Source: Lachnospiraceae bacterium (GTDB lineage Bacteria; Bacillota; Clostridia; Lachnospirales; Lachnospiraceae). From it: 64,000 bases of DNA. The stretch is taken from positions 1 through 64,000 of the forward strand of contig JAJQHZ010000140.1 of the NCBI GenBank assembly GCA_021199475.1, given 5' to 3'. The position numbers were made by a program, and so were the translations under genes. Shown here piece after piece: positions 1-18,103 of the stretch. Below the pieces are notes generated by a model that was not told the origin of the DNA, searched no databases, and saw only the letters and a list, made by a program, of their open reading frames with translations. How positions within the stretch are numbered: position 1 is the first letter of the stretch; every line of letters begins with the position of its first letter.

Positions 1-54
<54 letters not shown>

Positions 55-372
55 GGCTTGACGCTGTCCGGTTTTACTGCTTTTATTCTTTTATTATCAA
101 ATTACAAGGCGTGTTTCGCTCGCGGATGCTCCGCGGGCGTGATGCGCCTTGTTTTGCTTTACAGGAAACTTCGTTCTTATAAAGCAAAAACGCTTTGCGA
201 GGATGTTCTTTTGCCGGATGTGCAGGACCGGATAAGGAATTTTTCGGTTATCGGCAGACGCATGTGTATGCGGAACGAGTAAGTTATATACGGTAAGTTA
301 TATATGAGAAACGATTTTTCTCAATAACAATTGAGTGGAACGATAGATGACAGAATCAGAAAGGAGAAGATT
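55..372 (+). promoter_or_regulatory. Leader region of adhesin A with nested hairpin
   Basis: This 318-bp stretch has no convincing gene. A TTGACG at 58-63 is followed 17-18 bp later by a weak AT-rich -10 candidate. A nested palindrome spans 106-150: AAGGCG at 106-111 pairs with CGCCTT at 145-150, and inside it CGCGGA at 121-126 pairs with TCCGCG at 130-135. The ribosome site AAAGGAGAAG lies just before the ATG at 373. The promoter assignment is weak; the hairpin is plain in the sequence. Confidence 0.45.
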
Positions 373-3300
373 ATGAAGGGGAACAGAAGGTTATCAGGAA
401 AGCATTTTAGAAAGACATTAAGCGTGTTGCTGACGTTTTGTCTGCTGGCCGGGATGATTCCGGACGCCGCTTTCGCGCAGGATGAAACGAATGCGGTCAG
501 TGTGGAAACGGCTGCGGAGGCAGCGGCGACTTCGGAATCCGGCAGTGAGGCTGCCGCCGCATCGGAAGAGTCGGGGGCGGCGCAGACGACCGCGGCAGAA
601 GAGGCGCAGGCAGAAACGGAGACAGAGACGTCAAAGACGGAAACGGAAGCGTCGAAGGCAGAGACCGAAGCTACGGCGGAAACAACTCAGCCAGAAGCGG
701 CTCAGACGGAAACAGAGGCCGAGACGGAAGCGTCAAAGACGGAAACCGAAGCGGAGACAGATGCAGAGATCGATGCGTCGGCGACAGAGGCAGAATCCGA
801 GACCGGAGCAGCGGAAACCGAAACGGGAACGTCTGCAGAAGGGGCAGCAGCTGCGTCCGCGTCCGAGTCTGAAACGGGAACGGCAGAGGGAGCCGCGGAG
901 GAAGCGTCCGCAGAGGAGGCTAATGCACTCCTTACAAGCGCAGCGACACTCTGTGACCACGGCAACGACGCGGAGACCTGCGCGATCTGCGCGGTGGAGG
1001 CACTGATTGACACTTTGCCGACTGTGGATGAAATCGCTGAAATGGACACCGACGGGCAGAACGAGATTTATACAGATGCGTCGGAGATCTGCGATGCTTA
1101 TTACGCATTGTCCGAGGAAGATCAGGAGATGGTTTCCAATATTGATGCGCTGTGGGATGTGCTGGATTATTTCAGTGGTACGGTTTCCATGGCGGATGAG
1201 GAAGGGGAAACTGTAAGCGTTGATTATATAGATGAAAACGGGAGCACCCAGACCTGTTCTTCGTACACATCCATCACAGCGTCGGACACAGAATGGTCAG
1301 ACGGCTGGTATGTGGCAGACAGCACTGTAACAAACTCGAACAGAATTACCGTTAGCGGTACGGTATATCTAATCCTGGTGGACGACTGTACCCTCACTGC
1401 AAGCAGCGGCATTACCGTAAACAGCGGGGATACATTGGTCATTTATGGGCAATCAGGCGGCACAGGCGTCCTGAACGCATCTGCATCAACAGACTATTAT
1501 GCAGGAATTGGCGGCGGTGGCCAAAATCAATCCAGCGGTGTTATCACGATTAATGGCGGCAGCATTACAGCAGCCGGAGGAACAAGCGCTGCCGGAATCG
1601 GCGGCGGATACTATGGCGCTGGCCAAAATATCACGATCAACGGCGGAAATGTCACTGCAACCGGAGGCGAAAACGGAGCAGGTATTGGCGGCGGATATCA
1701 TGGTGCAGGTCAATATATCACAATAAACAGCGGCACAATCGTCGCGAATGGCGGCACAAGGGGTGCGGGAATTGGCGGTGGCATTTCCGGTGCGGGAAGC
1801 TATATTGAAATAAACGGCGGTGATGTCACTGCGACAGGTGGGTCATTTGCTACAGGAATCGGCGGCGGAGATACTGCCGCAGGCAGTTATATTACAATAA
1901 ACGGCGGTACGGTTACAGCAAAAGGACCAAACGGCGGTGCAGGAATCGGTGGCGGTGACGGCAGCAGTAATGGCACAGGCAGCAATATTACGATCACCGG
2001 CGGCTCAGTTACCGCGAGCAGCAATAGGGGTGCGGCAATCGGTGGCGGCATCGCTAAAGCCGGTACCGATATAACGATAAGCGGCGGTTATATTCTCGCT
2101 TCCTCCAATTCCGGCAGTGCAATCGGCGGCGGTGAAGGTGGCAGCTCATCCAATATCACCATCACCGGCGGCTATTTTGGCACAGGAGATACGAGTGCGG
2201 AAACCGTTTATAGTGTAAGCGTTGCTACAGGTTATGATGTAATCGATAATACGGAGAGTACACAGACTACCTGGCCGTATGTTGTCATTGAGGAGAATGG
2301 CACTTATAGCGTGACGCTGGAAACAAATGGCGGAACGATTGCAGAAGGCAGCGAATTGACTTCCTATACGTATGGCACAAGTGTGTCGCTTCCTGATTCT
2401 GAGACAATAACGAGGAACGGATATACCTTTATCGGATGGTATGAGGACAGTGATTTCTCCGGTGAGGCAGTTACCGAAATCAGTTCGACGGATTATGGTG
2501 ATAAGACCTTTTATGCCAAGTGGGAAGCAACGGATTTTGTTGTACAGGAAAGCACCGGAAGCTATACCTACACTGATAATTTGTTGACCATTACTTCTGG
2601 CGGTGATTTTACCATTTCTATGAACACAGATGAGGGCATCACCAGCACGGAGACTGACCGGATTCTGGTGAGCGCGGGCGATGATGTTACAATCACACTT
2701 GTCAGCGTGCAGAGTTCAAGCAGTAGCGCCTCTCCGTTTCAGGTCAATACAAGCTCAGCTGTGACCATCAAGCTCAGCGGCACGAATATCCTGACTTCCT
2801 CTGCCGACGGGTATGCGGGTCTGCAGAACACTGCTTCAGCCAGCCTGACTATTACCAGTGCGTCGGGCGACGGCAGCACAGAAGGTACCCTGACTGCCAC
2901 TGGCGGCAGCAACGGAGCAGGCATCGGCGGGGCAAATGGTAAAGCCGGTGGGATCATAATTATTAATGGCGGAACTATTACTGCCACTGGAAATGGCAAT
3001 GCTGCAGGCATCGGCGGCGGCAAAAGCGGCAACGGCGGAACAATTACCATTAACGGCGGCACTGTGACGGCCAATGGCGGTGGCAGCGCTGCAGGTATTG
3101 GCGGCGGACAAACAAAGAACGGAGGAACTATTACCGTTAACGGAGGTACTGTTACCGCACAGGGTGGCGATTGTGGTGCCGGTATCGGAGGCGGCAATAA
3201 CGGTGGCGGCGGTACAATTACCATCAACGGCGGCACAATTAATACCACCGGCGGCAACAGCGGTGCAGGCATCGGCAATGCCTATGAAAGCAGCGGCACC

Positions 3301-6300
3301 AAAGTTACCATCAGCGGAGGTACGATTACCGCCACCGGCGGCGAATATGCGGCGGGTATCGGAGACAGCATGAAATGTAGCGGCAGTACCGACATCACCA
3401 TCACTGGCGGCTCTGTCACTGCTAATGGTGGTACTGGTAAAAGCGGCGGTGCAGCAGGCATCGGAAGCGGTGTTAGCAGTAAAAGTACCCTTACCGTCAC
3501 TATTAACGGCGGTACGGTGACCGCCACAGGCGGCACGAATGGCGCAGGGATCGGCAGAGGCAACGGCAGCAGCAGTACTGCCACCATCTCCATTGATGGG
3601 TATGCTGAGGTGGCAGCTACCGGCAACGGAAACGGAGCAGGCATTGGAGGTAACAGCAGCACGTTCTCCGGCACTATCTCCATCACCGGTGGTACGGTGA
3701 CCGCCACCGGCGGCAGCAACGGAGCAGGAATTGGCGGCGGCAGTGGCTCTTTCAGCGGCTCCATTGTTATCGGTGAGGGCACTGTGACGGCTACCGGCGG
3801 CAGCAAGGGCGCAGGAATTGGCGGCGGTAGTGGTGCTTTCACCGGCACTCTTGAAATCAGCGGCGGCTATATTCTGGCAGAATCCGCCAGCTATGACCCG
3901 ATCGGCGGCGGAAGCGGCGGCGATGATGACAGTACTATTACGATCACCGGCGGCTATTATGGTGAAGGAACCTTGTATTCACAGGTTTATGACGTAGAGG
4001 TAGCGAATGGGTATGCGGTTGGCTATAATGCGGAAGAAGATTCAAAGGACGTTTATCCTTATGTCATAATTGAAGAAGGTACAGAACTCACGGTGTCTTT
4101 TGATGCTGGGGATGGTGAAAGCTGTGAGGACATCACTGTAACCTTCGGCAGCGCATACGGCGATGAACTTCCAACGCCTTCCCTCTATGGATATACTTTT
4201 AAGGGCTGGTATACGGAAGAGGACGGTGAAGGTGTTCTGATAGAGAGCGAAACAACGGTTTCTATTGCAGATGATCATACTCTGTATGTGCTCTATGAAC
4301 TGACTCCTGTGGATTATGTCGATGCCTCCGGAGCAACCCAGATATGTGAAGAATTTACAATCGTCACGGCAGATATGACTGAGTTGACAGATGAACTGAC
4401 CGACGGCTGGTATGCAGTAATCAGTGATGTAACCATCTCCGAGCGAATCACCGTTTCGGGCGAAGTACATCTGATCTTGGTGGACGGCCATACACTGACT
4501 GCAAGCGGCGGCATTGCCGTGAATGAAGGCAATATACTGAATATCTATGGGCAGTCCGAAAGTACGGGAAAACTGGCAGCATCGTCATCTACCAGTGGAA
4601 ATGCCGGGATCGGCGGCGACAGCGGTTACAGTGCAGGGACGATTATTATCAACGGCGGCGAGATTACAGCCAAAGGCGGCTATAATAGTGCAGGCATTGG
4701 CGGCGGCACCGGCGGCAATGGCGGAAGTATTACCATCAACAATGGCACAGTTACATCTACAGGCAACTATAACGGAGCCGGGATTGGTGGTGGTTATGAA
4801 GGCAGCAGCGGCGAAATCACGATTAATGGCGGTACGGTGACAGCGACAAGTACACATACCGGCGCAGGCATTGGCGGCGGTTACAAAGGAGCTGGAGAAA
4901 CCATTACAATTAACGGTGGGACAGTGACAGCTACGTCTTCCGATAACGGTGCCGGAATCGGCGGTGGAGGCAATTGTACCGGCGGAACAATTACAATCAG
5001 TGGGGGAACGGTAACTGCCGTGGCGCAAACTTTAACTTCTAGCCAAGGTTCTGCCGGGATTGGCGGCGGCGTCTTAGGCGATGGCGGAACGATTACGATC
5101 AGCGGAGGAACGGTTTCGGCCACCGGCTGCGGGAACGGAGCTGGAATTGGCGGCGGAGGCGGTAACGGTGATGGTGCTACTGGTGGAAGCGCCGGAAGTA
5201 TTAATATCAGCGGTGGCTATATAACAGCGTCCAGCTCAAAAGGCAGCATTATCGGCGCGGGCAGTAATTGCAGCGATGGCACGATCACAATCACCGGCGG
5301 CTACTTTGGCGATGGTACCCTGTATACCTATGCTTATGACGCAGAAGTGGCAACGGGCTATATGGTTACCAGTAACGAGGAAGAAGCTTCAAAGGTAGCT
5401 TATCCGTATGTTGTCACTGAAAGTGCAACCGCTACCGTGACTTTTGATACGAATGGCGGCACGTTATCAACAGAGACTAAGACAATGGAGGTAACGTTCC
5501 ATACTGCATATGGTACATTGCCTACGGCCACGAAGGACTGGTGTGTTTTTGACAGCTGGAATACAGCAGCGGATGGCAGTGGTGATGAAGTTACTTCCGA
5601 AAGTATTGTTTCCGTTTATGGAGACCACAATTTGTATGCTATTTATACACAGGTGGCTGTCGATTATGTTGATGAAGACGGAGAAACGCGGACCTGCGAA
5701 GAGTATACCCTGCTTACTTCTGACATGACGACCCTGTCTGCTGGCTGGTATGTCGTGGGCAATGATGTAACAATTTCTGACAGGATCATCATTTCCGGTG
5801 AAGTGCATTTGATTCTGGTGGATGACTATACGCTGGACGCTGACAGCGGCATCACCGTGAACAGCGGGAATACGCTGGTTATCTATGGGCAGGAAGAGAG
5901 CACCGGTACATTAAATGCGACCAGCAGCATTGAATATTATCCCGGAATTGGCGGCAGCGTAAGTGCTTCGGCAGGCACCATTACGATCAACGGTGGAGTT
6001 ATCAATGCTGAGGGTGCTAAAGGAGCCCCGGGTATCGGCAGCGGTGCCGGATTTAATTCAGCAATAAATACAAATGCCACAGTCATTACGATCAATAACG
6101 GCACCGTGACTGCGGTTGGCGGATCGGATGCAGCTGGAATCGGCGGCGGCCAGGAGAGCAATGGCGGCACGATCACGATCACAGGCGGCACGGTAAGCGC
6201 CACTGGCGGTAACTTTGGAGCAGGCATTGGCGGCGGCAGCGGCGGCGATAGTGACTCCGGGAATGGCGGCACAATCACCATTACAGGAGGCTTTATATAT

Positions 6301-9300
6301 GCAGCAAGCGGCAATACCTGTGGTGCAGGCATCGGTGGCGGGAACAAGAGCCCGGCAGGCACGGTTTCCATCAGTGGCGGGTATATCGTCACAAGCAGCA
6401 TTGGCGATGGCGACGGCTATACAGGCACGGACGACACGGTCACAATCACAGGCGGATGCTTTGGAGAAGGCGTGATCGCTGAAAGGACCGTATACAAAGT
6501 GACGGTTGCGGATGCCTATGGCGTAAGGAGCAATACCGAAGCGTCCACAAAGGCGACCTATCCGTACAGGGTTGTGGAGAAAACACCGATCACCGGTTCT
6601 GTCGTTATCAGTGGGTCTGCGGTATATGGGCAGACACTTACGGCAACGGCTTCCGATACCCCTGACGGGACGGAAAATTCGCTGGAGTACCAGTGGCAGC
6701 GGGATGGTGTAGCTATCAGTGGCGCAACCGCCAGCACCTATATCTTAACAGCGGATGATGTGGGATCTGTGATCACGGTTGTGGTCTCCCACCCAAGCTG
6801 CACCACCACCTTAACGGCCTCAACAAGCGCGGTAGCGAAGGCAACCTTAACTGCATCTATCGCCGGGACAACTACGAAAACCTATGACGGCACGACAGCT
6901 GTCTCCGATGGCGTATCCATCAGCTTAAGTGGAGCGGTAGGTGAGGACGAACCGACTGCCACAGCGGAAATTGCTTATGATTCTGCAAGCGTTGGGGATG
7001 ATAAGACCATCACAGCAAGTGGCATTACTTTAGGGTCATCCTGGGGTAGCTGTTATGTGCTTGGAAGTACGATGGCTACATGTGAAGGAGTTATCACAGC
7101 GAAATCCGTGACTGCTTCTATCAGCGGTACGACCACAAAAACCTACGACGGCACCACTGCTGTGACCGATGCGCAGGGCCTGTCCATCACGTTAGAGGGC
7201 GTTGTAGATGGCGATACAGTTAATGCAAGCGCAACGAGTTATGCTTACGACAGCGCGAATGTTGGGACGGACAAAACAATTACGGCCAGCGGCATTGCAT
7301 TAAGCGGTACGGATGCGGGCAATTATGAGCTTTCAGCTGCTACGGCGACTACAGAAGGGACAATCACTGCAAAGGACATCACCGTCACGATTACCGCAGG
7401 CGGCGGAACCTATGGAGGTACGATCACGGCGGCGACGGCGGAGCTGAGCGGCGTGGTCAACACAGATAACGTTAGTGTGACCCTGACCTACAGTGGCACG
7501 GCAAATGACGGGACAGAGTATAACAGCACAACCGCGCCGACATTGGCTGGCACCTATACGGTGACTGCCACGATCAGCGACAGCAACTACAGCCTGACCG
7601 GAACAACGGAGGCGAAGTTTGTGATTGCGAAGGCGATCTACGACATGAGCGGCGTAAGCTTTGCGGATGCGACCTACACCTATGACGGCACGGAGAAGAC
7701 GCTGATAATTACCGGAAGTGAGAGCCTGCCAGATGGCGTGACGGTGACGTATACGGAAAATACTCTGACGAATGTTGGCAGCATTGAAGTGACAGCAACC
7801 TTTACTGGAGATGCTGATAATTATGAGGCGATTGATTCAAAGAAAGCGACGTTGACCATTGTCAATGCGGATCTTACTGTAACGGTGAACGGATATGAAG
7901 GTGCGTATGATGGAGATGCGCACGGAATTACGGTAACCGTCGGGGAAGAAGATGCAGCTGTTACTTACAGTGTTGCGGAAGAAGGGGAATACTCCGAGGA
8001 TACTTATGCCTACATCGATACAGGAACCTATACGGTTTATTACAAGGTAAGCAAAGCAAATTATAATGGTGTGAGTGGTTCCGCTACGGTGAAGATCACT
8101 CAGAGGGCAGTCACTGTTACCATAGACAGTAAGAGCAGCACCTATGGAGACGAGATTGAAGAACTCACGGCTGAGGTTAAGGAAGGCAGTGTTGTGGAGG
8201 GAGATAAAGAGATTTATTCTCTCGCTACGGAAGCAACCAGTTCGTCCGCTGTCGGCTCATACGATATCACGGGCACGGCGGAAAATGACAATTACAGCAT
8301 TACCTTTGTAAATGAGGAAGGCGCGTATACAATCTCGGCTGCGGAGTTGGCCAATGTTACTGTATCGCAGGCTGAAACGCTCACCTACGACGGAACGGCG
8401 CAGACTGCCGAAGTCGCAGCCAGTGCGGAGACCGTGGATGGGACGGATGACGAAGTTACCTTTACCTACAGCACCTCGGAAGACGGAGACTATTCTACGG
8501 AGGTTCCTGCATTTACGGACGCCGGGACTTACACGGTTTACTACCGCGCAACGGCAGCTAACTATGAAACCGTAGAAGGCAGCTTTACGATAACCATTGC
8601 CGCAAAGGAAATCACAGCCACCATAACCGCAGCGGGCGGGACTTATGGAGGTACGATTACAGCGGCGACGGCGGAGCTGAATGATGTGGCTGACGCAGAC
8701 GCAGGCAGTGTGGAGGTGACTCTGACCTACACAGGCACAGCAAACGACGGCACCGTGTACAGCAGCACGGAGGTGCCGACACTGGCTGGTACCTACACGG
8801 TGACTGCCACGATCAGCGACAGCAACTACAGCCTGGCCGGAACGACGACGGCGGAATTTACCATCGCGAAGGCGACCTACGATATGAGCGGTGTGAGCTT
8901 CGCGGATGCGACAGTCGAATACGATGGAACGGAAAAGGCTCTGGAGATTAGCGGAACGCTTGCGGATGGCGTGACCGTGACGTATACGAGCAATACCCGG
9001 ACGGAAGCGGGCAGCGTGACGGCAACCGCGGCGTTCACCGGTGACTCGAACAATTATGAAACGATTGCGTCCATGACGGCGACACTGACCGTGACAGTTC
9101 TGGTGGAACTGCCGGAGCAGACCTTCCCGGATGAGGACGCGGAGCACAAGATCGAACTGATCGAGGGGATTTCTGAGGTGCCGGAGACGCTGAAGGACAA
9201 TACGGAACTGGATACCGTAGAAGAAATCAAGACAAGCCTGAAGACGATTGTCTGCGCGCAGACCGGCTATACAGAGGAAAACATTGTTTACTACGAAGTG

Positions 9301-9888
9301 ACTCTGATGATCAGCTTTGACGGCGGCAAGACATGGGTAAAGGCAACGGAAGAGAACTTCCCGGAGGAAGGACTCACGATTGTCCTGCCTTACCCGGATG
9401 GTACGAACAAAGACGAATATGACTTCTTCGTGACCCATATGTTCACAACGACCGCATTCGGACATACGCCGGGCGAGACGGAAAACCCGGCTGTCACAAA
9501 GACAGACACTGGCCTGCAGGTGACCCTGAGCGGCCTGTCGCCGATCGCTGTCGCATGGAAGCTCATCACGCAGTCGTCCGGTGAGACCGAGGCGCCCACT
9601 ACTCCTGAGACTGCGGCAACTGAAGCCACGACGCCTGAGACGACCGCAACCGAAGCGGCAACCGAGGCTGCAACGCCTGAGACCACCGCTACGGAGGCCG
9701 AGACGGAGACGACCGCAACCGAGGCTGAAACAGAGACCGAGACGACAACGGAAGCTGAGACGGAATCCGAGACGGAAGCGCCTGTACAGACCGGGGATGA
9801 CACGCCGCTTAGCATGTGGCTTACCCTGTTCCTGCTGTCGGCAGCGGTGCTGCTGATGATGGGAGAGCGGAAGCGCCAGAGAGGATAA
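373..9888 (+). CDS. Giant sortase-anchored modular adhesin (adhesin A)
   Basis: A secreted, wall-anchored surface protein of 3171 aa. ATG 373 is chosen because AAAGGAGAAG precedes it and a signal peptide follows (basic start, hydrophobic core, AFAQ cleavage region). Approximate order: Ala/Glu/Thr low-complexity stalk 36-195; Cys/His module beginning CDHGN, about 195-285; glycine-rich beta-helix blocks with repeats like TINGGTVTATGG...GAGIGGG at about 330-610, 730-1205, 1315-1650 and 1765-2035; InlB/Listeria-Bacteroides repeats between them (YTFIGWYEDSD, YTFKGWYTEEDG); an Ig-like domain near 2075-2150; YDG (KTYDGTTAV) and MBG repeats 2156-2905; a conserved terminal domain (LPEQTFPD) 2906-3066; a Thr/Glu linker; PVQTGDD, hydrophobic helix and RKRQRG tail. 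The beta-helix units resemble carbohydrate-binding Cthe_2159-type repeats. Ligand unknown. The 3' end is nearly identical to that of adhesin B. Confidence 0.93.
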   Translation: MKGNRRLSGKHFRKTLSVLLTFCLLAGMIPDAAFAQDETNAVSVETAAEAAATSESGSEAAAASEESGAAQTTAAEEAQAETETETSKTETEASKAETEATAETTQPEAAQTETEAETEASKTETEAETDAEIDASATEAESETGAAETETGTSAEGAAAASASESETGTAEGAAEEASAEEANALLTSAATLCDHGNDAETCAICAVEALIDTLPTVDEIAEMDTDGQNEIYTDASEICDAYYALSEEDQEMVSNIDALWDVLDYFSGTVSMADEEGETVSVDYIDENGSTQTCSSYTSITASDTEWSDGWYVADSTVTNSNRITVSGTVYLILVDDCTLTASSGITVNSGDTLVIYGQSGGTGVLNASASTDYYAGIGGGGQNQSSGVITINGGSITAAGGTSAAGIGGGYYGAGQNITINGGNVTATGGENGAGIGGGYHGAGQYITINSGTIVANGGTRGAGIGGGISGAGSYIEINGGDVTATGGSFATGIGGGDTAAGSYITINGGTVTAKGPNGGAGIGGGDGSSNGTGSNITITGGSVTASSNRGAAIGGGIAKAGTDITISGGYILASSNSGSAIGGGEGGSSSNITITGGYFGTGDTSAETVYSVSVATGYDVIDNTESTQTTWPYVVIEENGTYSVTLETNGGTIAEGSELTSYTYGTSVSLPDSETITRNGYTFIGWYEDSDFSGEAVTEISSTDYGDKTFYAKWEATDFVVQESTGSYTYTDNLLTITSGGDFTISMNTDEGITSTETDRILVSAGDDVTITLVSVQSSSSSASPFQVNTSSAVTIKLSGTNILTSSADGYAGLQNTASASLTITSASGDGSTEGTLTATGGSNGAGIGGANGKAGGIIIINGGTITATGNGNAAGIGGGKSGNGGTITINGGTVTANGGGSAAGIGGGQTKNGGTITVNGGTVTAQGGDCGAGIGGGNNGGGGTITINGGTINTTGGNSGAGIGNAYESSGTKVTISGGTITATGGEYAAGIGDSMKCSGSTDITITGGSVTANGGTGKSGGAAGIGSGVSSKSTLTVTINGGTVTATGGTNGAGIGRGNGSSSTATISIDGYAEVAATGNGNGAGIGGNSSTFSGTISITGGTVTATGGSNGAGIGGGSGSFSGSIVIGEGTVTATGGSKGAGIGGGSGAFTGTLEISGGYILAESASYDPIGGGSGGDDDSTITITGGYYGEGTLYSQVYDVEVANGYAVGYNAEEDSKDVYPYVIIEEGTELTVSFDAGDGESCEDITVTFGSAYGDELPTPSLYGYTFKGWYTEEDGEGVLIESETTVSIADDHTLYVLYELTPVDYVDASGATQICEEFTIVTADMTELTDELTDGWYAVISDVTISERITVSGEVHLILVDGHTLTASGGIAVNEGNILNIYGQSESTGKLAASSSTSGNAGIGGDSGYSAGTIIINGGEITAKGGYNSAGIGGGTGGNGGSITINNGTVTSTGNYNGAGIGGGYEGSSGEITINGGTVTATSTHTGAGIGGGYKGAGETITINGGTVTATSSDNGAGIGGGGNCTGGTITISGGTVTAVAQTLTSSQGSAGIGGGVLGDGGTITISGGTVSATGCGNGAGIGGGGGNGDGATGGSAGSINISGGYITASSSKGSIIGAGSNCSDGTITITGGYFGDGTLYTYAYDAEVATGYMVTSNEEEASKVAYPYVVTESATATVTFDTNGGTLSTETKTMEVTFHTAYGTLPTATKDWCVFDSWNTAADGSGDEVTSESIVSVYGDHNLYAIYTQVAVDYVDEDGETRTCEEYTLLTSDMTTLSAGWYVVGNDVTISDRIIISGEVHLILVDDYTLDADSGITVNSGNTLVIYGQEESTGTLNATSSIEYYPGIGGSVSASAGTITINGGVINAEGAKGAPGIGSGAGFNSAINTNATVITINNGTVTAVGGSDAAGIGGGQESNGGTITITGGTVSATGGNFGAGIGGGSGGDSDSGNGGTITITGGFIYAASGNTCGAGIGGGNKSPAGTVSISGGYIVTSSIGDGDGYTGTDDTVTITGGCFGEGVIAERTVYKVTVADAYGVRSNTEASTKATYPYRVVEKTPITGSVVISGSAVYGQTLTATASDTPDGTENSLEYQWQRDGVAISGATASTYILTADDVGSVITVVVSHPSCTTTLTASTSAVAKATLTASIAGTTTKTYDGTTAVSDGVSISLSGAVGEDEPTATAEIAYDSASVGDDKTITASGITLGSSWGSCYVLGSTMATCEGVITAKSVTASISGTTTKTYDGTTAVTDAQGLSITLEGVVDGDTVNASATSYAYDSANVGTDKTITASGIALSGTDAGNYELSAATATTEGTITAKDITVTITAGGGTYGGTITAATAELSGVVNTDNVSVTLTYSGTANDGTEYNSTTAPTLAGTYTVTATISDSNYSLTGTTEAKFVIAKAIYDMSGVSFADATYTYDGTEKTLIITGSESLPDGVTVTYTENTLTNVGSIEVTATFTGDADNYEAIDSKKATLTIVNADLTVTVNGYEGAYDGDAHGITVTVGEEDAAVTYSVAEEGEYSEDTYAYIDTGTYTVYYKVSKANYNGVSGSATVKITQRAVTVTIDSKSSTYGDEIEELTAEVKEGSVVEGDKEIYSLATEATSSSAVGSYDITGTAENDNYSITFVNEEGAYTISAAELANVTVSQAETLTYDGTAQTAEVAASAETVDGTDDEVTFTYSTSEDGDYSTEVPAFTDAGTYTVYYRATAANYETVEGSFTITIAAKEITATITAAGGTYGGTITAATAELNDVADADAGSVEVTLTYTGTANDGTVYSSTEVPTLAGTYTVTATISDSNYSLAGTTTAEFTIAKATYDMSGVSFADATVEYDGTEKALEISGTLADGVTVTYTSNTRTEAGSVTATAAFTGDSNNYETIASMTATLTVTVLVELPEQTFPDEDAEHKIELIEGISEVPETLKDNTELDTVEEIKTSLKTIVCAQTGYTEENIVYYEVTLMISFDGGKTWVKATEENFPEEGLTIVLPYPDGTNKDEYDFFVTHMFTTTAFGHTPGETENPAVTKTDTGLQVTLSGLSPIAVAWKLITQSSGETEAPTTPETAATEATTPETTATEAATEAATPETTATEAETETTATEAETETETTTEAETESETEAPVQTGDDTPLSMWLTLFLLSAAVLLMMGERKRQRG

Positions 9889-9954
9889 AAGCGCGGATGC
9901 GTCAGAGGTGATATAAGCGCTATTCAGACACAGCGTTATTTAGAGATGATGTAG

Positions 9955-9979
9955 AAAAAGCAGCTGCAAGGCTGCTTTT
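9955..9979 (+). terminator. Rho-independent terminator after adhesin A
   Basis: AAAAGCAGC pairs with GCTGCTTTT around the loop TGCAAG, 66 bp after the adhesin stop. The same structure recurs 7785 bp downstream after adhesin B. Confidence 0.8.
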
Positions 9980-10227
9980 CCTATGCGAGGAATGAAATCG
10001 GGCCTGCTGTTCTGAATAGTTCAAATGAAAGACTAATGTAAGGGGTTCAGGCGGCAGAGCAGGAAACTTTCGTTTATTATACGAATGCCTCCGCCCTATT
10101 GTATGAACAGTTGACTCGGAGGAGGAAGCTGAAGAGGAATAATTGAAAATAATGCGGAGAAAATACTGGCAAAATATGTGACATATATTATGTTTAAGAA
10201 ATGTTTGATATGATTATGAAATAATCG

Positions 10228-10288
10228 TTGACATCATTTGCGATTCGTGATAGAGTGAAAATGAACGGCGTAAGCTGGTCACTTACAC
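10228..10288 (+). promoter_or_regulatory. Promoter and leader hairpin of the broken Rpn copy
   Basis: TTGACA at 10228-10233 and TAGAGT at 10251-10256 are 17 bp apart. A hairpin (GTAAG, CTGGTCA loop, CTTAC) follows at 10268-10288. The segment is a copy of the one before the intact Rpn gene; here one outer stem pair is lost. It fills the gap between adhesin A and the Rpn remnant. Confidence 0.55.
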
Positions 10289-10318
10289 GTACATGACCCG
10301 GGGAAGTCAAAAATTCAT

Positions 10319-10793
10319 ATGAAATCAAAGGAAAAAAAGCCGATAGTGGCAGATACTTCGAAGAGTGAAACTCCGACGTATCTGGCTGCTGCACACTCTT
10401 CGGATGGGAAGATTGGAGGGCAGGGAAAGGAAAGAGAATGAGGATGCATTTTCCAATGTATCTGAGACAGCAGTTTGCGCGATCTCAGATCTGGCGCATT
10501 CAGCGGAGCTTGAAAAAATCCGAAAGACCAGTCATGTGATCAATGAAAGGGGAAATTATAATATGTGTCAGGCACTCAGAGAATGGATGGAAGACAGCAA
10601 AAAGGAAGGCCGGGATGAGGAAAAGGCTAATACAGAGCGGGAACGTTTGCGCGCAGATGCCGCAGAGAAGAAGATAAAAGAGGCCGAAGAGGAGAATGCC
10701 GTCCTTATGCGGAGGCTGAGTGATGCCATGGAGAAAATGCAGGAACTCTCGCAGGAAGTTACAAACCTGCGGAAGCAGATGAGGCTGGCATAG
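10319..10793 (+). pseudogene. Rpn-type nuclease, internal-deletion remnant
   Basis: This is a deleted copy of the gene at 18104-19351. From ATG 10319 the first 38 codons match the intact copy closely. Sequence then jumps, at about 10432, to the segment corresponding to about 18884 in the intact copy, removing roughly 670 bp that include the putative nuclease core. The deletion shifts the frame, so the N-terminal frame stops at 10441. The C-terminal coiled-coil half stays open in another frame and ends at 10793. The remnant also has one 21-bp ADAAE unit where the intact gene has six. A 142-aa ORF starting at 10365 could be translated but begins in the wrong frame. Confidence 0.85.
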
Positions 10794-10796
10794 ATA

Positions 10797-10859
10797 CCGT
10801 CAAGAATGTTCACAGTGCCAAATGTTCACAGTGCCAGACACTATGAACATTCTTGACGG
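10797..10859. repeat. Palindromic REP/MITE-like element
   Basis: CCGTCAAGAATGTTCA (10797-10812) is the exact reverse complement of 10844-10859. Between them the AATGTTCACAGTG motif is repeated and can pair with CACTATGAACATT. It lies just after the broken Rpn gene. A diverged counterpart follows the intact Rpn gene at 19376-19407. The remaining bases to 11063 hold no gene I can support. Confidence 0.7.
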
Positions 10860-11063
10860 GGACAAGACGAATATCCCATCAAATCTATTCTTTTGGATAC
10901 TTCCATTTCTAAAACGTATGTGCTAAAATACATCGGGTATTGTCTCGACATCCTTTCCTATGTTTCTGCTTGTCGGGATAATGAAATGAATGTCACAGGG
11001 CATGTATGAATGTGGGAAATGGCTGAATGAGGAAATAAGGCTCAGAGCTATCAGGAGGGGATT

Positions 11064-11726
11064 ATGAAAAACCGAAAAAGTAAGAAATCTCGAAAAGTGT
11101 TAAGTATCATGCTGTCAGCGGCCCTTTTGTTGTCGCTGGTGCCTTCCTCAACGCTTGCATCGGGCGCAGAAGAGACGATACAGACGACCGCGTCAGAGCT
11201 TGAATTGACCGAGTCGGTGACGGCAGAGCGCGGGGGATCTGCGTCTGTGCCGTCAGAAACCGGAACAACAGGTTCAGCCGCGGAGGAAGCGGCAGGGGCG
11301 GAGACTGGGACGACAGGTTTGGATGAGGAAGATACGGCGGCATCAGAATCCGAGACGACACAGTCTGAGACGATGCAGACGGATGCTGCGCAGACAGGAT
11401 CAGTGCAGTCTGAGACGACACAGTCTGAGACAGATCAGACAGGGCCGACGCAGTCGGAAACCACGCAGTCCGAGATGGCGGATTTGGACGCACCGGAATC
11501 CGGGTCGGCATCGTCGGATGCGGATTCAACGGAGGCTGGTGCCGGTACGGGAACATCCGAAACGGCGGATTCCGCATCGGCGGAGTCTGGGGCAGGAGAG
11601 ACCGTCGCGTCAGGCTCCGGGACGACAGGCTCTGAGACTGCGCAGCTTAGTTCTGCGCAGGGAGAGACGACGGAAGGGGAAACTACTGAATCTGGGGCCG
11701 ACGGGGGGGGTAAATTCCCAGAATGA
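11064..11726 (+). CDS. Adhesin B, part 1: signal peptide and stalk, ends at a frameshift
   Basis: The ATG follows a strong AGGAGGGG. The product begins with a basic, hydrophobic signal peptide ending near TLASGAEE, then a Thr/Ser/Glu/Ala-rich stalk with repeats such as TTQSETMQTD. In the given sequence the frame runs through eight G at 11703-11710 and stops at TGA 11724-11726 after 220 aa. Deleting one G joins this frame to the next part (GADGG-VNSQNDES). That makes it the 5' end of one long gene equivalent to adhesin A. As written it would release a secreted stalk without an anchor. Confidence 0.85.
   Translation: MKNRKSKKSRKVLSIMLSAALLLSLVPSSTLASGAEETIQTTASELELTESVTAERGGSASVPSETGTTGSAAEEAAGAETGTTGLDEEDTAASESETTQSETMQTDAAQTGSVQSETTQSETDQTGPTQSETTQSEMADLDAPESGSASSDADSTEAGAGTGTSETADSASAESGAGETVASGSGTTGSETAQLSSAQGETTEGETTESGADGGGKFPE
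11703..11710 (+). other. Poly-G(8) tract at the frameshift point
   Basis: Eight consecutive G lie where the open frame moves from the stalk to the Cys/His module. Seven G, or ten, would restore a continuous frame across the junction. Homopolymeric G runs inside surface-protein genes are classic slipped-strand phase-variation sites. A sequencing or assembly error is the alternative. Confidence 0.9.
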
Positions 11727-13650
11727 TGAATCGCTGATTCTCTGTGCGCATGGGAACAGCGCAGATGACTGTGTCATTTGTGATCTGGAGACGCAGATTG
11801 CGGGACTTCCGACTTTGGAGGAAGTCGAGACGATGGAGGGCGAGGAGTTAGACGCCATCTATGAGCTGACCTCTGCGCTTGCAGATATTTATTATGATGA
11901 ACTGACGGAGGAAGAGCAGGTTCAGGTGTCAAACATCGATGCGCTGTGGGAAATCCTCGATTATTTCAGCGGAGCAGTGATGGCGACAGCGTTCGCTTAT
12001 GATTCGGATGGGTTCTATACAAGCGGAGACACGACCTATTATCAGCCTGCCACTCTGTCGAACGGTGTATATCAGATTTCAAACGCCGGGCAGCTGTTCT
12101 GGTTGGCGTCGCTGGTAAATGGCGACACGACGCAGGAGGATATCACAGAGGCGGTGTCCGGTGCGAACGCAAAGCTGACTGCGAATATCAATCTGCAGAA
12201 TAAAACATGGGTGCCGATCGGCAGCTATTCCGGTACATTTGATGGAAACGGAAAGACCATTTCCGGTTTATACATAAACAGTACATCCGGATATCAGGGA
12301 TTCTTCAGTACGGTCAGCGGCGGAACTGTGAAAAGCCTGACCTTAAGCGGGAATGGAATCACCGGCGCGGGCAGCACTGGAAGCATTGCGGGGGCTCTGA
12401 CCAACGGAGGAACGATCGAAAGCTGCACAAACAATGTGCCGGTGACCGGAAGCGGATATTATGTGGGAGGCATTGTGGGATATGTAGCCAAAGGAAACAT
12501 TACATCCTGCACCAATAACGCGGCACTCTCTAATACCTCAGCGGATCTGGGCGGCATTGCCGGTTTTATAGAGAGCGGCTGTACGGTCAGCAGCTGCACC
12601 AATACCGGAACGGTATCAGGAAGCAGCAGCTATTTCGGAGGAATCGTCGGAAATTCCGGCACCAGCTCCGCGGGCGGCAACACAATCAGCAATTGTATCA
12701 ATAGCGGAGCCGTCAGCTGCAACAACAATGTCGGCGGAATTCTGGGGTATATGATGAACACCACGGCGGTGTCCGGCTGCGTGAACAGCGGAGCCGTTTC
12801 TGCTACCGGTGGCTGGGTCGGCGGTGTGGTTGGTAATATGACTACGGCCAGCAGCAGTAGTGTGAGCAGCTGCTCGAACAGCGGTACGGTGACTGGCGGC
12901 GGAGACTACACCGGCGGCGTAGTGGCCTACGCAGCAGGCAGTATTACCGGCTGCTCGAACAGCGGTGCGGTGACGGGCAGCGGAGACTACACCGGCGGCA
13001 TCATTGGGAGCGGGGCGATTGCGGTCAGCCAGTGTGCCAATACGGGGACTGTATCGGGCCCCAGACGAGTGGGCGGCATCATCGGCCGACTGAGCAGTGG
13101 AGGAACGGTAAGAAACTGTTACAATGCGGGGGCTGTTAGCTGCACCAATCAATATGCCGGCGGCATTGTGGGTGAGTCCTATGGAACCATCTACGTGAGC
13201 CACAATTATGGTAAAATTACGGGGACATCTGTGGGAGCCATTATCGGATATGTTAACAGCAGCGGAGCCATCAGTTCCGCATGGTATCTGAGCGACACAG
13301 GAAACAGCGTCTATGGCACCGGGAAAACGGTTGGTGCAAATGCCAGGACAACGGGTCAGTTTGCGTCCGGCTATGTGACGTATAGTATGCAGAATACAGC
13401 AGGATCCTCCCAGATCTGGGGACAGGATCTGACCTCCGCCACGCCGGATCCTTATCCGGTTTTGACGTCGGACAGTTCAAAAAAGGTGCTTCAGGTAACG
13501 ATCATACTGGTGGATGGCAGTTCCCAGACAACACTGGAGACCAGCTATACCAATTATGGAAAGACATTGCTGTCTTATCCGACCCTGACCGGTGATGATA
13601 CGTATGAATTTTATTCGGATTCTGCATGCACACAGAGTTGGGATACTTAG
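11703..13650 (+). CDS. Adhesin B, part 2: Cys/His module and GLUG repeats, ends at TAG
   Basis: The open frame after the G tract encodes LCAHGN...CVIC and the VSNIDALW..LDYFSG module shared with adhesin A. About twelve GLUG-type repeats follow (patterns such as GGIVGY, NSGAVS, CTNTGTVSG), typical of IgA-peptidase/adhesin passenger regions. Last comes the start of an InlB-like segment (YEFYSDSACTQSWDT) that meets TAG at 13648-13650. No ribosome site or start suits independent translation, so this part depends on frame restoration at the G tract. The middle differs completely from adhesin A, where beta-helix repeats occupy the same place. Confidence 0.8.
13648..13650 (+). other. In-frame amber codon inside adhesin B
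   Basis: After ...TQSWDT the frame has TAG and then continues without a shift as TVFYDNKTIYAV, the normal end of an InlB-like repeat. Glutamine (CAG) is the obvious ancestral codon, one transition away. No second stop follows until 17673. Confidence 0.9.
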
Positions 13651-13722
13651 ACCGTATTTTATGATAATAAGACAATTTATGCTGTAAAAGTATCGAAAAA
13701 TACATGGACGTCTGCACTGACT

Positions 13723-16700
13723 ATGTCGGGGTGGACATACGGCGGGAATGCGGTGGAGCCTGCTGCGTCTTCGGCGTATGGTATTGTGGAATATGCATAT
13801 TATACGGATTCCGACTGTACGGCTAAGACAACTTCGGATAACAGCGGCGCGTCTGAAGAGGGCGGAAAACCGGTTAATGCTGGTACTTATTATGTACAGG
13901 CTTCTGTAGCTGCGTCAGTTACTTATACCGGTCTGATATCGGATGCGGCGTCCTTTACCATTGGAAAAGCCTCGCTGACTATTACCGCAAATGCCAATAC
14001 GATTACCTATGGCGATGCACCCTCGGCGAATGGCGTGACCTACAGCGGCTTTGTAAATGAGGAGTCTGAGAGTACGAATGGCGTGCTGAGTGGGACGCTG
14101 ACGTATTCCTACAGCTACAGCCAGTACGGCGCTGTGGGTGAGTATACCATTACGCCGTCGGGATTGAGCGCAGCGAATTATGAGATCACTTACGCGGCCG
14201 GGAAGCTGACGGTCGAGCAGCGGACGGCTGTGCTGACATGGACGACACTCGCTGCAGATGAGCTTGTCTATGATGGAAACGAGAAGACTTTGACCGCGAC
14301 GGTCGGCAACAAGGCACAGGAGAATGATGAGATATCTGTGACGGTCGAATTGACGGCTGATTGTGATAATGTGAATGTGACGGCCAATGGATTTAGCTAC
14401 ACGGCGACGGGGTTGACCGGTGCGGCAAGTGGGAATTATAAACTGCCAGACAATACGGTTAGCGCGACTTATCGGATCACTGCTGCTGCGGTGACGATTA
14501 CTGCGGCGGATGCATCGAAAACCTATGGAGAGGCGGACCCGGCCTTTACCGTCACGGTGACTGGTACGGCGACGGAGGCTGATCGGACAGGATTAAAGGT
14601 CAGCTACAGCCGGGCGGAGGGCGAAAACGCCGGAACCTATACAATCACACCGTCCTATACGGGGAACAGCAACTACAGCGTAGAAGTTGTACCTGCAACC
14701 TTTACCATTTATAAAAAGGCAGTTACCGTCACGGCAGATGATAAGTCTTCCATCTATGGAAGTAATCTTGAGGAACTGACTTTTACCGTTCCGGAGGGAG
14801 CACTGGCAGGAGATGACAAAGGAAGTGATCTTTGTGTGAATCTCACAACAACGGCAGCCAAAGGTTCCGCGGTGGGGACATATGAGATTATTGGAACATC
14901 AACATCCGGAAATTATGAGGTGACTGTGGAACCAGCCGCTTATACGATAAAAAAAGCCTCGCTGACTATTACTGCAAAGGACAATACCATCACCTATGGC
15001 GATGCGCCCTCGGCGAATGGCGTGAGCTACAGCGGCTTTGTAAATGAGGAGTCTGAGAGTACGAATGGCGTGCTGAGTGGGACGCTGACGTATTCCTACA
15101 GCTATAGCAAGTATGGTTCTGTGGGTGAGTATGTCATTACGCCGTCGGGATTGAGCGCAGCGAATTATGAGATTACATATTCGGATGGGAAGCTGACGGT
15201 CGAGCAGCAGACGGCAGTGCTGACATGGACGACACTGGACATGAGTGACCTCATTTATGATGGCACGGCGAAGACGCTGTCGGCGACGGTCGGCAACAAG
15301 GCACAGGAGAACGATGAGATATCTGTGACGGTAGAACGGACGGCCGGTTGTGATAATGTGAATGTGACAACCGATGGATTTAGCTACACGGCGACGGGAT
15401 TGACCGGTGCGGCAAGTGGGAATTATAAACTGCCGGACAATACAGTCAGCACGACTTATCAGATCGTTGCTGCTGCGGTGACGATCACAGCGGCGGATGC
15501 ATCGAAAACCTATGGCGATGCGGATCCGACCCTGACCGGCACGGTGACTGGAACGGCGACGGAGGCTGATCTGGCAGGATTAAAGGTCAGCTACAGCCGG
15601 GCGGAAGGTGAAAACGCCGGAACCTATACCATCACACCGTCCTATACGGGGAACAGCAACTACAGTGTAGAAGTTGTACCTGCAACATTTACCATTTATA
15701 AAAAGGCAGTTACCGTTACGGCGGACGATAAGATATCAGTGTACGGCACTGCGCTTGAAACGCTCACGTTTACGATTCCGCAGGATGCTCTGGTGGCGGG
15801 AGATACCGAGGACGATCTTGCCGTGATTCTGACGAAAGCGACCGTTGCGGAGGATGTTGGCACAGACGAAACTGGGTCCGGCGATACGGATACAGATGAA
15901 GGCGGCACAGGCGGAACTGGGGCCGACGATACGGACACAGATGAAGGTGGTACAGGCGAATCGGGATCGGGTGACACCGACACGGACGGAAATGACATGG
16001 ATGGCGGTGTCACAGACGGAACCGATGCGGCCGGAGCAGATTTGGCAGGAAAAGATGTTGGAATCTACGCGATTACCGGAACATCGACGGCGGCCAATTA
16101 TGAGGTGACCGTGATACCTGCTACTTACACGATCACAAAGGCAGCTCTGACCATTACGGCGAATGATAATACCATCACCTATGGCGATGCCCCGTCGGAT
16201 ACTGGCGTAAGCTACAGTGGGTTTGTCTATGAGGAGTCTGAGGATACGGATGGCGTATTTGAAGGGGAACTGACTTATGCATTTGACTATAGCCAGTATG
16301 GTGATGTAGGGACTTACAGCATCACTCCGTCCGGTCTGACTTCCGCTAATTACGAGATTACCTATGAGACAGGAAGCTTGACGGTCGGGCAGAGGATCGT
16401 TGAACTGGATTGGTCGACACTCGCCGCAGACGAGCTTGTCTATGATGGAAACGCGAAGACCCTGACTGCGACGGTCGGTAACAAGGCACAGGAGAACGAT
16501 GATATAGCAGTGACGGTAGAACGGACGGCCGATTGTGATAATGTAAATGTTACAGCGGATGGGTTCAGCTACACGGCGACCGCCCTGACCGGCGCTGCCA
16601 GCGGCAATTATGCACTGCCGGAGAATACGGTCAGTGAGACGCACCAGATTACATCGGCTGCGGTGACAGTTACGGCGAATGATGTGGTCAGGAGCTATGG

Positions 16701-17673
16701 CGACGATAATCCGACCTTTGCATTTACAATTAGCGCGGGTGCGCTGGCGAGCGGCGATACAACGGATGATCTTGGTGTGACGCTCTCGACAACGGCGGAT
16801 AAGAATTCGGCGGCCGGGACTTACGCGATTACAGGTACCTCTACAAGCGTGAATTACGATGTGACTGTGGTCAGCGGCACTATGACCGTGGCGGAGCTGA
16901 CCGGGCTGCCGGAGCAGACCTTCCCGGATACAGATGCGGCACATAAGATCATTCTGCAGGTGGGTCTGTCTGAGGTGCCGGAAGCGCTGAAGGATAATCC
17001 GAACCTGAATACGGTGGAGAAAATTACGGCCATGCTGAAGACAACTGTTACCAAACAGAGCGGATATTCCGAGGAAAACGTGGTCGTCTATGATGTGACT
17101 TTGATGGTCAGCTTCGATGGAGGTGTGACATGGGAGAAAGCCACTGAGGAGAGCTTCCCGGTAAATGGTCTGACGCTTCTTCTGCCGTATCCGGATGGCA
17201 CAGGTAAGGATACCCATGATTTTGCTGTGACGCATATGTTCACGTCCGCCGCGCTTGGCAAGACGCCGGGCGAGATGGAAAGCCCGGCAGTGACAAAGAC
17301 AGCGGATGGTCTGCTTGTGACCGTGACAGGCCTGTCGCCGATCGCCGTCGCATGGAAGCTCATCACGCAGTCGTCCGGAGAGACGGCGCCCACGACGCCC
17401 GAAACTGCGGCGACCGAAGCCGCAACGCCTGAGACGACCGCAACCGAGGCTGCAACGCCTGAGACCACCGCTACAGAGGCGGAGACCAAGGCGACTGAGG
17501 CCGAGACGGAGACGACCGCGACAGAGTCTGAAACAGAGACAGAGACGGCTACTGAGACGGAAGCTCCGGTACAGACCGGGGACGACACGCCGCTTAGCAT
17601 GTGGCTTACCCTGTTCCTGCTATCGGCTGCGGTTCTGCTGATGATGGGAGAGCGGAAGCGCCAGAGAGGATAA
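13723..17673 (+). CDS. Adhesin B, part 3: MBG repeats and sortase signal
   Basis: This is the same frame as part 2 and is open from 13651; the first ATG is at 13723, with no good ribosome site. It encodes MBG/YDG-type repeats of about 80-90 aa (ITYGDAPSANGV, KTYGEADP, ENAGTYTITPSYTGNSNY), some nearly identical to each other. A Gly/Asp/Thr-rich insert lies near 15860-16030. The terminal LPEQTFPD domain, Thr/Glu linker, PVQTGDD, membrane helix and RKRQRG tail match adhesin A almost exactly. Without a start of its own it is best read as the 3' part of the interrupted adhesin B gene. A read-through product of all three parts would be about 2200 aa. Confidence 0.8.
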   Translation: MSGWTYGGNAVEPAASSAYGIVEYAYYTDSDCTAKTTSDNSGASEEGGKPVNAGTYYVQASVAASVTYTGLISDAASFTIGKASLTITANANTITYGDAPSANGVTYSGFVNEESESTNGVLSGTLTYSYSYSQYGAVGEYTITPSGLSAANYEITYAAGKLTVEQRTAVLTWTTLAADELVYDGNEKTLTATVGNKAQENDEISVTVELTADCDNVNVTANGFSYTATGLTGAASGNYKLPDNTVSATYRITAAAVTITAADASKTYGEADPAFTVTVTGTATEADRTGLKVSYSRAEGENAGTYTITPSYTGNSNYSVEVVPATFTIYKKAVTVTADDKSSIYGSNLEELTFTVPEGALAGDDKGSDLCVNLTTTAAKGSAVGTYEIIGTSTSGNYEVTVEPAAYTIKKASLTITAKDNTITYGDAPSANGVSYSGFVNEESESTNGVLSGTLTYSYSYSKYGSVGEYVITPSGLSAANYEITYSDGKLTVEQQTAVLTWTTLDMSDLIYDGTAKTLSATVGNKAQENDEISVTVERTAGCDNVNVTTDGFSYTATGLTGAASGNYKLPDNTVSTTYQIVAAAVTITAADASKTYGDADPTLTGTVTGTATEADLAGLKVSYSRAEGENAGTYTITPSYTGNSNYSVEVVPATFTIYKKAVTVTADDKISVYGTALETLTFTIPQDALVAGDTEDDLAVILTKATVAEDVGTDETGSGDTDTDEGGTGGTGADDTDTDEGGTGESGSGDTDTDGNDMDGGVTDGTDAAGADLAGKDVGIYAITGTSTAANYEVTVIPATYTITKAALTITANDNTITYGDAPSDTGVSYSGFVYEESEDTDGVFEGELTYAFDYSQYGDVGTYSITPSGLTSANYEITYETGSLTVGQRIVELDWSTLAADELVYDGNAKTLTATVGNKAQENDDIAVTVERTADCDNVNVTADGFSYTATALTGAASGNYALPENTVSETHQITSAAVTVTANDVVRSYGDDNPTFAFTISAGALASGDTTDDLGVTLSTTADKNSAAGTYAITGTSTSVNYDVTVVSGTMTVAELTGLPEQTFPDTDAAHKIILQVGLSEVPEALKDNPNLNTVEKITAMLKTTVTKQSGYSEENVVVYDVTLMVSFDGGVTWEKATEESFPVNGLTLLLPYPDGTGKDTHDFAVTHMFTSAALGKTPGEMESPAVTKTADGLLVTVTGLSPIAVAWKLITQSSGETAPTTPETAATEAATPETTATEAATPETTATEAETKATEAETETTATESETETETATETEAPVQTGDDTPLSMWLTLFLLSAAVLLMMGERKRQRG

Positions 17674-17739
17674 AAGCGCGGATGCGTCAGAGGTGATATA
17701 AGCGCTATTCAGACACAGCGTTATTTAGAGATGATGTAG

Positions 17740-17764
17740 AAAAAGCAGCTGCAAGGCTGCTTTT
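17740..17764 (+). terminator. Rho-independent terminator after adhesin B
   Basis: The same AAAAGCAGC/GCTGCTTTT hairpin as at 9955-9979, displaced by exactly 7785 bp. The whole gap 17674-18103 duplicates 9889-10318 with few changes. Confidence 0.8.
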
Positions 17765-18012
17765 CCTATGCGAGGAATGAAATCGGGCCTGCTGTTCTGA
17801 ATAGTTCAAATGAAAGACTAATGTAAGGGGTTCAGGCGGCAGAGCAGGAAACTTTCGTTTATTATACGAATGCCTCCGCCCTATTGTATGAACAGTTGAC
17901 TCGGAGGAGGAAGCTGAAGAGGAATAATTGAAAATAATGCGGAGAAAATACTGGCAAAATATGTGACATATATTATGTTTAAGAAATGTTTGAAATGATT
18001 ATGAAATAATCA

Positions 18013-18073
18013 TTGACATCATTTGCGATTCGTGATAGAGTGAAAATGAACGGTGTAAGCTGGTCACTTACAC
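18013..18073 (+). promoter_or_regulatory. Promoter and leader hairpin of the intact Rpn gene
   Basis: TTGACA 18013-18018, 17-bp spacer, TAGAGT 18036-18041, then a perfect 7-7-7 hairpin GTGTAAG/CTTACAC at 18053-18073. The ATG of the Rpn gene follows 30 bp later with a modest GGGGAAG ribosome site. The hairpin could modulate leader folding. Confidence 0.6.
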
Positions 18074-18103
18074 GTACATGACCCGGGGAAGTCAAAAATT
18101 TAT

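Follow-up and report, generated by a model that had tools for sequence, protein, structure and literature searches.

The question raised by this locus is whether the run of eight G residues within the gene of adhesin B, a predicted surface protein, serves as a slipped-strand switch, or whether it marks a gene in decay or an error of assembly. We addressed this question in a window of 64 kb (the whole stretch of DNA that was analysed), which belongs to contig C123; the genome comprises 3.8 Mb in 165 contigs. Direct counting confirmed the eight G reported in the first-pass annotation, and reading of the open frames bore out its further statement that the stalk frame and the Cys/His-GLUG frame diverge exactly at this run. 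The gene comprises the following features:

11064..11726, + strand, N-terminal piece of adhesin B, with signal peptide and Thr/Glu/Ser-rich stalk
11703..11710, + strand, poly-G tract (G8) at the junction of stalk and Cys/His domain
11710..13650, + strand, middle piece, with the Cys/His domain at 11734-11979 and then GLUG repeats
13648..13650, + strand, second in-frame stop (TAG)
13651..17673, + strand, C-terminal piece, with MBG_2 repeats and a QTGDD-type anchor

A ribosome-binding site (11053-11058) lies 5' of the ATG at 11064, and the frame from this ATG enters the G8 and ends in a stop at 11726, 16 bases past the tract. The Cys/His-GLUG piece is read in a different frame from the stalk, open from the tract to 13650, and the G8 is the point where tract length sets the reading frame of this surface gene. 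The signal peptide was called by a simple hydrophobicity rule. At the C-terminus we observed a QTGDD motif followed by a hydrophobic segment and a basic tail, for which no match to Pfam Gram_pos_anchor was reported at E 0.01. No promoter or terminator pattern was found in the region 5' of the gene (10790-11120).

The second stop complicates the interpretation of the tract. Past the TAG the same frame stays open to 17673, and the homologue L081 has an open frame over the stretch that matches the TAG region. Because of this TAG, tract length alone cannot give a wall-anchored protein from the present copy of adhesin B, which is not a gene otherwise intact and may be decaying. The first-pass annotation did not contain the TAG; it had described the gene as OFF-phase and had named further decay beforehand as evidence against a switch. 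A second in-frame stop is present, and an OFF phase in the sense of a simple reversible state of adhesin B is not established. The TAG favors the alternative that adhesin B is a decaying pseudogene in which the G8 arose as one lesion by ordinary slippage and the TAG as another, and no switching occurs, an explanation that we consider unlikely, if deserving of serious weight. Against such decay, the open frames span 6.6 kb with two breaks only.

The window also contains a paralogue for comparison:

373..9888, + strand, adhesin A, the intact paralogue, with the Cys/His domain from 952 and a C-terminal anchor nearly as in adhesin B

The first-pass annotation held that adhesin B, after loss of one G, has the same module order as adhesin A. 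The two proteins do have in common a signal peptide and a stalk, the Cys/His domain and the C-terminal anchor, but they differ in their bodies, where the Pfam matches are not the same (Beta_helix_3, Flg_new, YDG and MBG_3 in adhesin A; Glug and MBG_2 in adhesin B). Over the C-terminal 260 codons the two genes differ at 40, 30 and 99 sites in codon positions 1, 2 and 3, respectively, and this preponderance of third-position differences suggests that constraint acted on the two copies through most of the time that they diverged. The 3' ends of the two genes and the DNA behind them (9510-10431 and 17307-18216) share about 91% identity over a length of 925 bases. A gene 3' of adhesin B (18104-19351) matches Transposase_31 (YhgA-like), and a nearly identical, shorter copy of this DNA lies behind adhesin A (10432-10799).

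The number of G8 runs in the window was rejected as evidence, as one was seen and a mean of 3.46 was expected from shuffling. The whole genome contains 139 G6, 18 G7, 4 G8, 5 G9, 2 G10 and 1 G11 runs. With an expectation for long runs extrapolated from the decay between G6 and G7, runs of at least 9 G were in clear excess (8 seen vs. 0.35 expected, Poisson P ~4e-9), and this excess persisted at a lenient decay ratio of 0.25 (P = 2e-4). The G8 class, with 4 seen vs. 2.3 expected, was unremarkable. The evidence for the adhesin B tract lies in its position and in its companion tracts rather than in the bare run.

We evaluated position by a rule for split genes. On the 5' side, this rule takes a start codon with a ribosome-binding site and a signal peptide (called by a simple hydrophobicity test, not by a trained predictor) whose frame enters the tract and meets a stop within 75 bases; on the 3' side, it takes another frame that stays open for 450 bases or more past the tract. 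Such an arrangement was found at 5 of the 12 tracts of at least 8 G in this genome, at 0 of 18 G7 tracts and at 0 of 30 G6 tracts, the last being a sample fetched from the 139 (Fisher P = 1.5e-4). The five split genes are:

Adhesin B, G8, signal peptide and stalk parted from the Cys/His-GLUG body
L025, G9, stalk, then an open stretch of 1811 residues without a Pfam match
L026, G9, SpaA/LPXTG pilin
L029, G8, LPGTG end
L032, G9, transglutaminase, LRR_5 and Big_2 domains

That four other genes are split at a like position argues against a pseudogene, all the more as no second stop was seen before a plausible end in L026, L029 or L032, as far as they were read. L025 points the other way: its body, like that of adhesin B, is interrupted by a second in-frame stop (L025:10364-10366), with the frame open beyond it. 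Such a stop would be expected of genes that accumulate damage during long periods in the off state, and equally of genes that are simply dying. The five tracts behind signal peptides are all out of frame, a pattern with a chance of about 0.13 that also fits plain loss of function, and none of the 12 runs of at least 8 G in this genome is an in-frame tract behind a signal peptide. An in-frame G7 was observed in the same genome within the stalk of a secreted protein (L129).

The frame offset is identical in four of the five split genes, which would be expected if the full protein were made from the existing tract by transcriptional slippage, or by programmed ribosomal frameshifting, at the G run. 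The fifth, L032, has the other offset, and this mixture weakens the case for programmed frameshifting; moreover, L122, L129 and L078 need no shift, and in adhesin B the TAG would still stop the product. We therefore regard this mechanism as highly improbable.

The seven remaining tracts of at least 8 G, which did not split a gene by this rule, were L022, L023, L024, L027, L028, L030 and L031. The tract of L027 lies 23 bases off a contig end, that of L028 is intergenic, between two genes, and that of L030 is near the start of a 206-codon frame. In L024 a G9 (7479-7487) is located just 5' of a TATAAT ahead of a relative of the adhesins of 4695 residues, and in genome G013 a G10 (L107) occupies a similar site, with a TATAAT/TACAAT box, before a related adhesin gene. 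It is possible that these two tracts are promoter-spacer switches.

In the 46 other genomes of the genus we found no close orthologue of adhesin B, the best matches being 69-72% identical over about 230 bases; this, too, is what a pseudogene might show. Two relatives are about equally near to the middle piece, and they differ at the junction. The first (L006/L078; 72% DNA identity over 229 bases and 39% identity over 630 residues) has a G7 that begins 25 bases 5' of the domain's first Cys codon; the G8 of adhesin B begins 31 bases 5' of that codon. Its frame is open through the G7 from the stalk to an anchor-like end, over about 1730 codons, and its contig begins inside the stalk, so that no secretion signal is visible. 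An in-frame tract at the same junction speaks against decay of adhesin B as the whole explanation. The second relative (L007/L080; 69% DNA identity over 232 bases and 46% identity over 366 residues) has an open frame and no run of 7 or more G at the matching junction, which agrees better with a chance lesion in adhesin B.

A clearer variation in tract length was observed in the family of the L026 pilin, which gave 12 matches in 8 of 46 genomes (own genome included). Four of these matches carry a tract in the signal peptide and the other eight have none. The tract is a G9 and out of frame in this genome, in G021 and in G008, and a G7 and in frame in G011, and the flanks in G008 and G011 are nearly the same sequence. 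Relatives thus differ in tract length, in and out of frame, in the pilin family; for adhesin B itself this holds weakly, with an in-frame G7 in one distant relative and no tract in another. Taken as a type, the slipped-strand switch that the first-pass annotation had proposed was supported by the five genes split at G8-G9 between signal peptide and body, and by an in-frame G7 at the same kind of place in one near relative of adhesin B as well as in one pilin relative.

Tract lengths also differed between genomes at other matching sites (G9 and G11 in L036 and L037; G9 and G10 in L045 and L091), and a run of at least 9 G was present in at least 40 of 46 genomes of the genus (own genome included) among the matches listed. 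When the rule for split genes was applied to 40 tracts of at least 9 G in relatives, among those listed and with runs at contig ends included, two agreed with it: L095, which is the G008 pilin already counted, and L046, suggesting that relatives have their tracts at diverse positions. In L046, of relative G012, a G9 splits a gene that reads like a cytoplasmic enzyme, its start presumably that of a nucleotide-sugar dehydrogenase, which indicates that the rule is not fully specific. Two contigs of relatives (L094 and L108) end in runs of 30 and 52 G, which are probably sequencing artefacts.

These artefacts bear on a further explanation, which is that the tract length in adhesin B is a consensus error, as the assembly, with its 165 contigs, resembles a draft from short reads, and G runs are hard to count. 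The Cys/His domain is common to 17 named loci, all from metagenome-assembled genomes (15 Lachnospiraceae, 1 Clostridiales and 1 Oscillospiraceae), and the study of Bifidobacterium breve pili warns, in the excerpts used here, that annotated lengths of G tracts can be wrong (PMC9187656). However, even if its length were miscounted, the run would remain an unusual G tract, with tracts placed alike in several genes and genomes, and miscounting does not explain the TAG at 13648-13650. We consider an error of this kind improbable.

Of the explanations weighed, we favor slipped-strand switching as the best reading of the adhesin B tract, with moderate confidence. The G8 would be a slip-prone contingency tract in which the number of G changes during replication, and this number would decide whether a ribosome that starts at 11064 goes on to translate the Cys/His-GLUG body or terminates 16 bases past the tract. 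At least five genes of this genome, adhesin B among them, would carry a tract of this kind where the signal peptide is parted from the body. The present copy, assembled out of frame and with an in-frame TAG, would be no more than a switch whose downstream half is damaged: slippage could connect the secretion signal with the GLUG part, though not with the wall anchor. It is from the arrangement of the gene and its companions that we infer slippage, its reversibility, surface display and adhesion.

Slippage switches have been described mostly in pathogens. Among gut bacteria they are described in bifidobacterial pili, and the sortase-dependent pili of B. breve UCC2003 (bbr_0113 and bbr_1889) were found by experiment to have a poly-G switch that acts by replication slippage (PMC9187656; this and the following comparisons draw on excerpts of the papers cited). 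In these pili a G tract separates two open reading frames, one with the Sec signal and one with the LPXTG motif; the annotation has them out of frame, and trouble in Illumina sequencing of G tracts was noted (PMC9187656). We regard this switch as the closest precedent for adhesin B, since both concern a gut Gram-positive organism and a tract, out of frame, between the open reading frame with the secretion signal and the frame that leads to the anchor, which in adhesin B is putative. The two differ in that the tracts described here occur in relatives known as Lachnospiraceae metagenome-assembled genomes and in several unrelated genes, that the adhesin B tract follows a long stalk and is accompanied by an extra stop, and that the B. 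breve switch is known from experiments, whereas the putative switch in adhesin B is known here from assembled sequences. Homopolymer slippage also alters the expression of surface proteins in group A Streptococcus, through a poly-C tract of Mga, but that tract sits in a regulator gene and that of adhesin B in the surface gene itself (PMC10330708). We found no paper on poly-G or repeat switches in Lachnospiraceae in the open-access literature; one candidate, PMC6437147, was set aside, as it deals, in the excerpts used, with AB5 toxins and Campylobacter.

A second kind of repeat was observed 5' of adhesin A, with the following features:

1..54, + strand, (AGAC)13.5 array at the contig edge, 5' of adhesin A
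105..151, + strand, terminator-like hairpin of the adhesin A leader (-36.3 kcal/mol vs. -17.2 in shuffles, z -7.1), then TTTT

The same repeat is found at the edge of contig C119, where a ribosome-binding site and an ATG come before it on that strand, which suggests that the window contig and C119 probably meet there and that the array is probably part of a leader open reading frame that starts on C119. Arrays of at least 5 units were present in at least 14 of 46 genomes of the genus (own genome included), among the matches listed. We examined 19 distinct arrays, 13 of them from the listed array places, leaving out L207, which is the same locus as L077. A leader start with a ribosome-binding site was found 15-35 bases 5' of the array in 15 of 17 testable cases (17 of 309 random points), and a terminator-like hairpin within about 140 bases 3' of the array in 14 of 18 (1 of 309 random points). 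A gene start that passes the signal-peptide rule followed in 16 of 20 rows, in which L077 is counted twice; at least one downstream gene, that of L212, seems to encode a membrane protein and not an adhesin. In some loci the leader stops short of the hairpin, and in others its end falls within the hairpin or past it.

The loci with the array in a short leader, followed by the hairpin in most of them, are the window (1-155), L033, L034, L074, L075, L077, L082 and L201-L214. In L070 and L071, with leaders of 81 and 21 codons, a G8 and a G7, respectively, stand in the leader at the place of the GACA array, about 610 and 710 bases 5' of the Cys/His domain, and one copy of the GACA unit is left. One or two copies of CACGAATGG were seen by eye near a TATAAT-like box 5' of the leaders in L033, L035, L070, L071 and L077; this element is possibly a regulator site.

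The pil1 locus of Streptococcus gallolyticus has a leader-peptide attenuator with GCAGA repeats, the number of which alters leader length (PMC3894217, again from excerpts). Adhesin A and its kin, but not adhesin B, resemble it in having repeats in a short leader open reading frame (putative for adhesin A), a terminator-like hairpin and then the gene (PMC3894217). They differ from pil1 in their repeat unit, which is GACA in the adhesin A type and is replaced by a G tract in L070 and L071, and in standing before many genes in several genomes. The GACA cassette, as read from its sequence, may represent a novel form of leader attenuator.

These observations admit a broader reading, which we hold to be evenly balanced between right and wrong: that an uncultured gut lineage of Lachnospiraceae runs its surface proteome by two slippage systems, one of poly-G tracts in or before surface genes (adhesin B, the pilins and the promoter spacer of the giant adhesin) and the other a portable leader-peptide/terminator cassette with (GACA)n that precedes adhesin A as well as many other exported proteins, with each cell carrying its own random combination. 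The GACA leader cassette, if real, would extend a mechanism described for one streptococcal pilus, in the excerpts used of PMC3894217, to many genes and genomes. If the broader reading is true, an uncultured gut lineage would possess a repertoire of slippage switches, and strain-level surface diversity would partly be made within each host.
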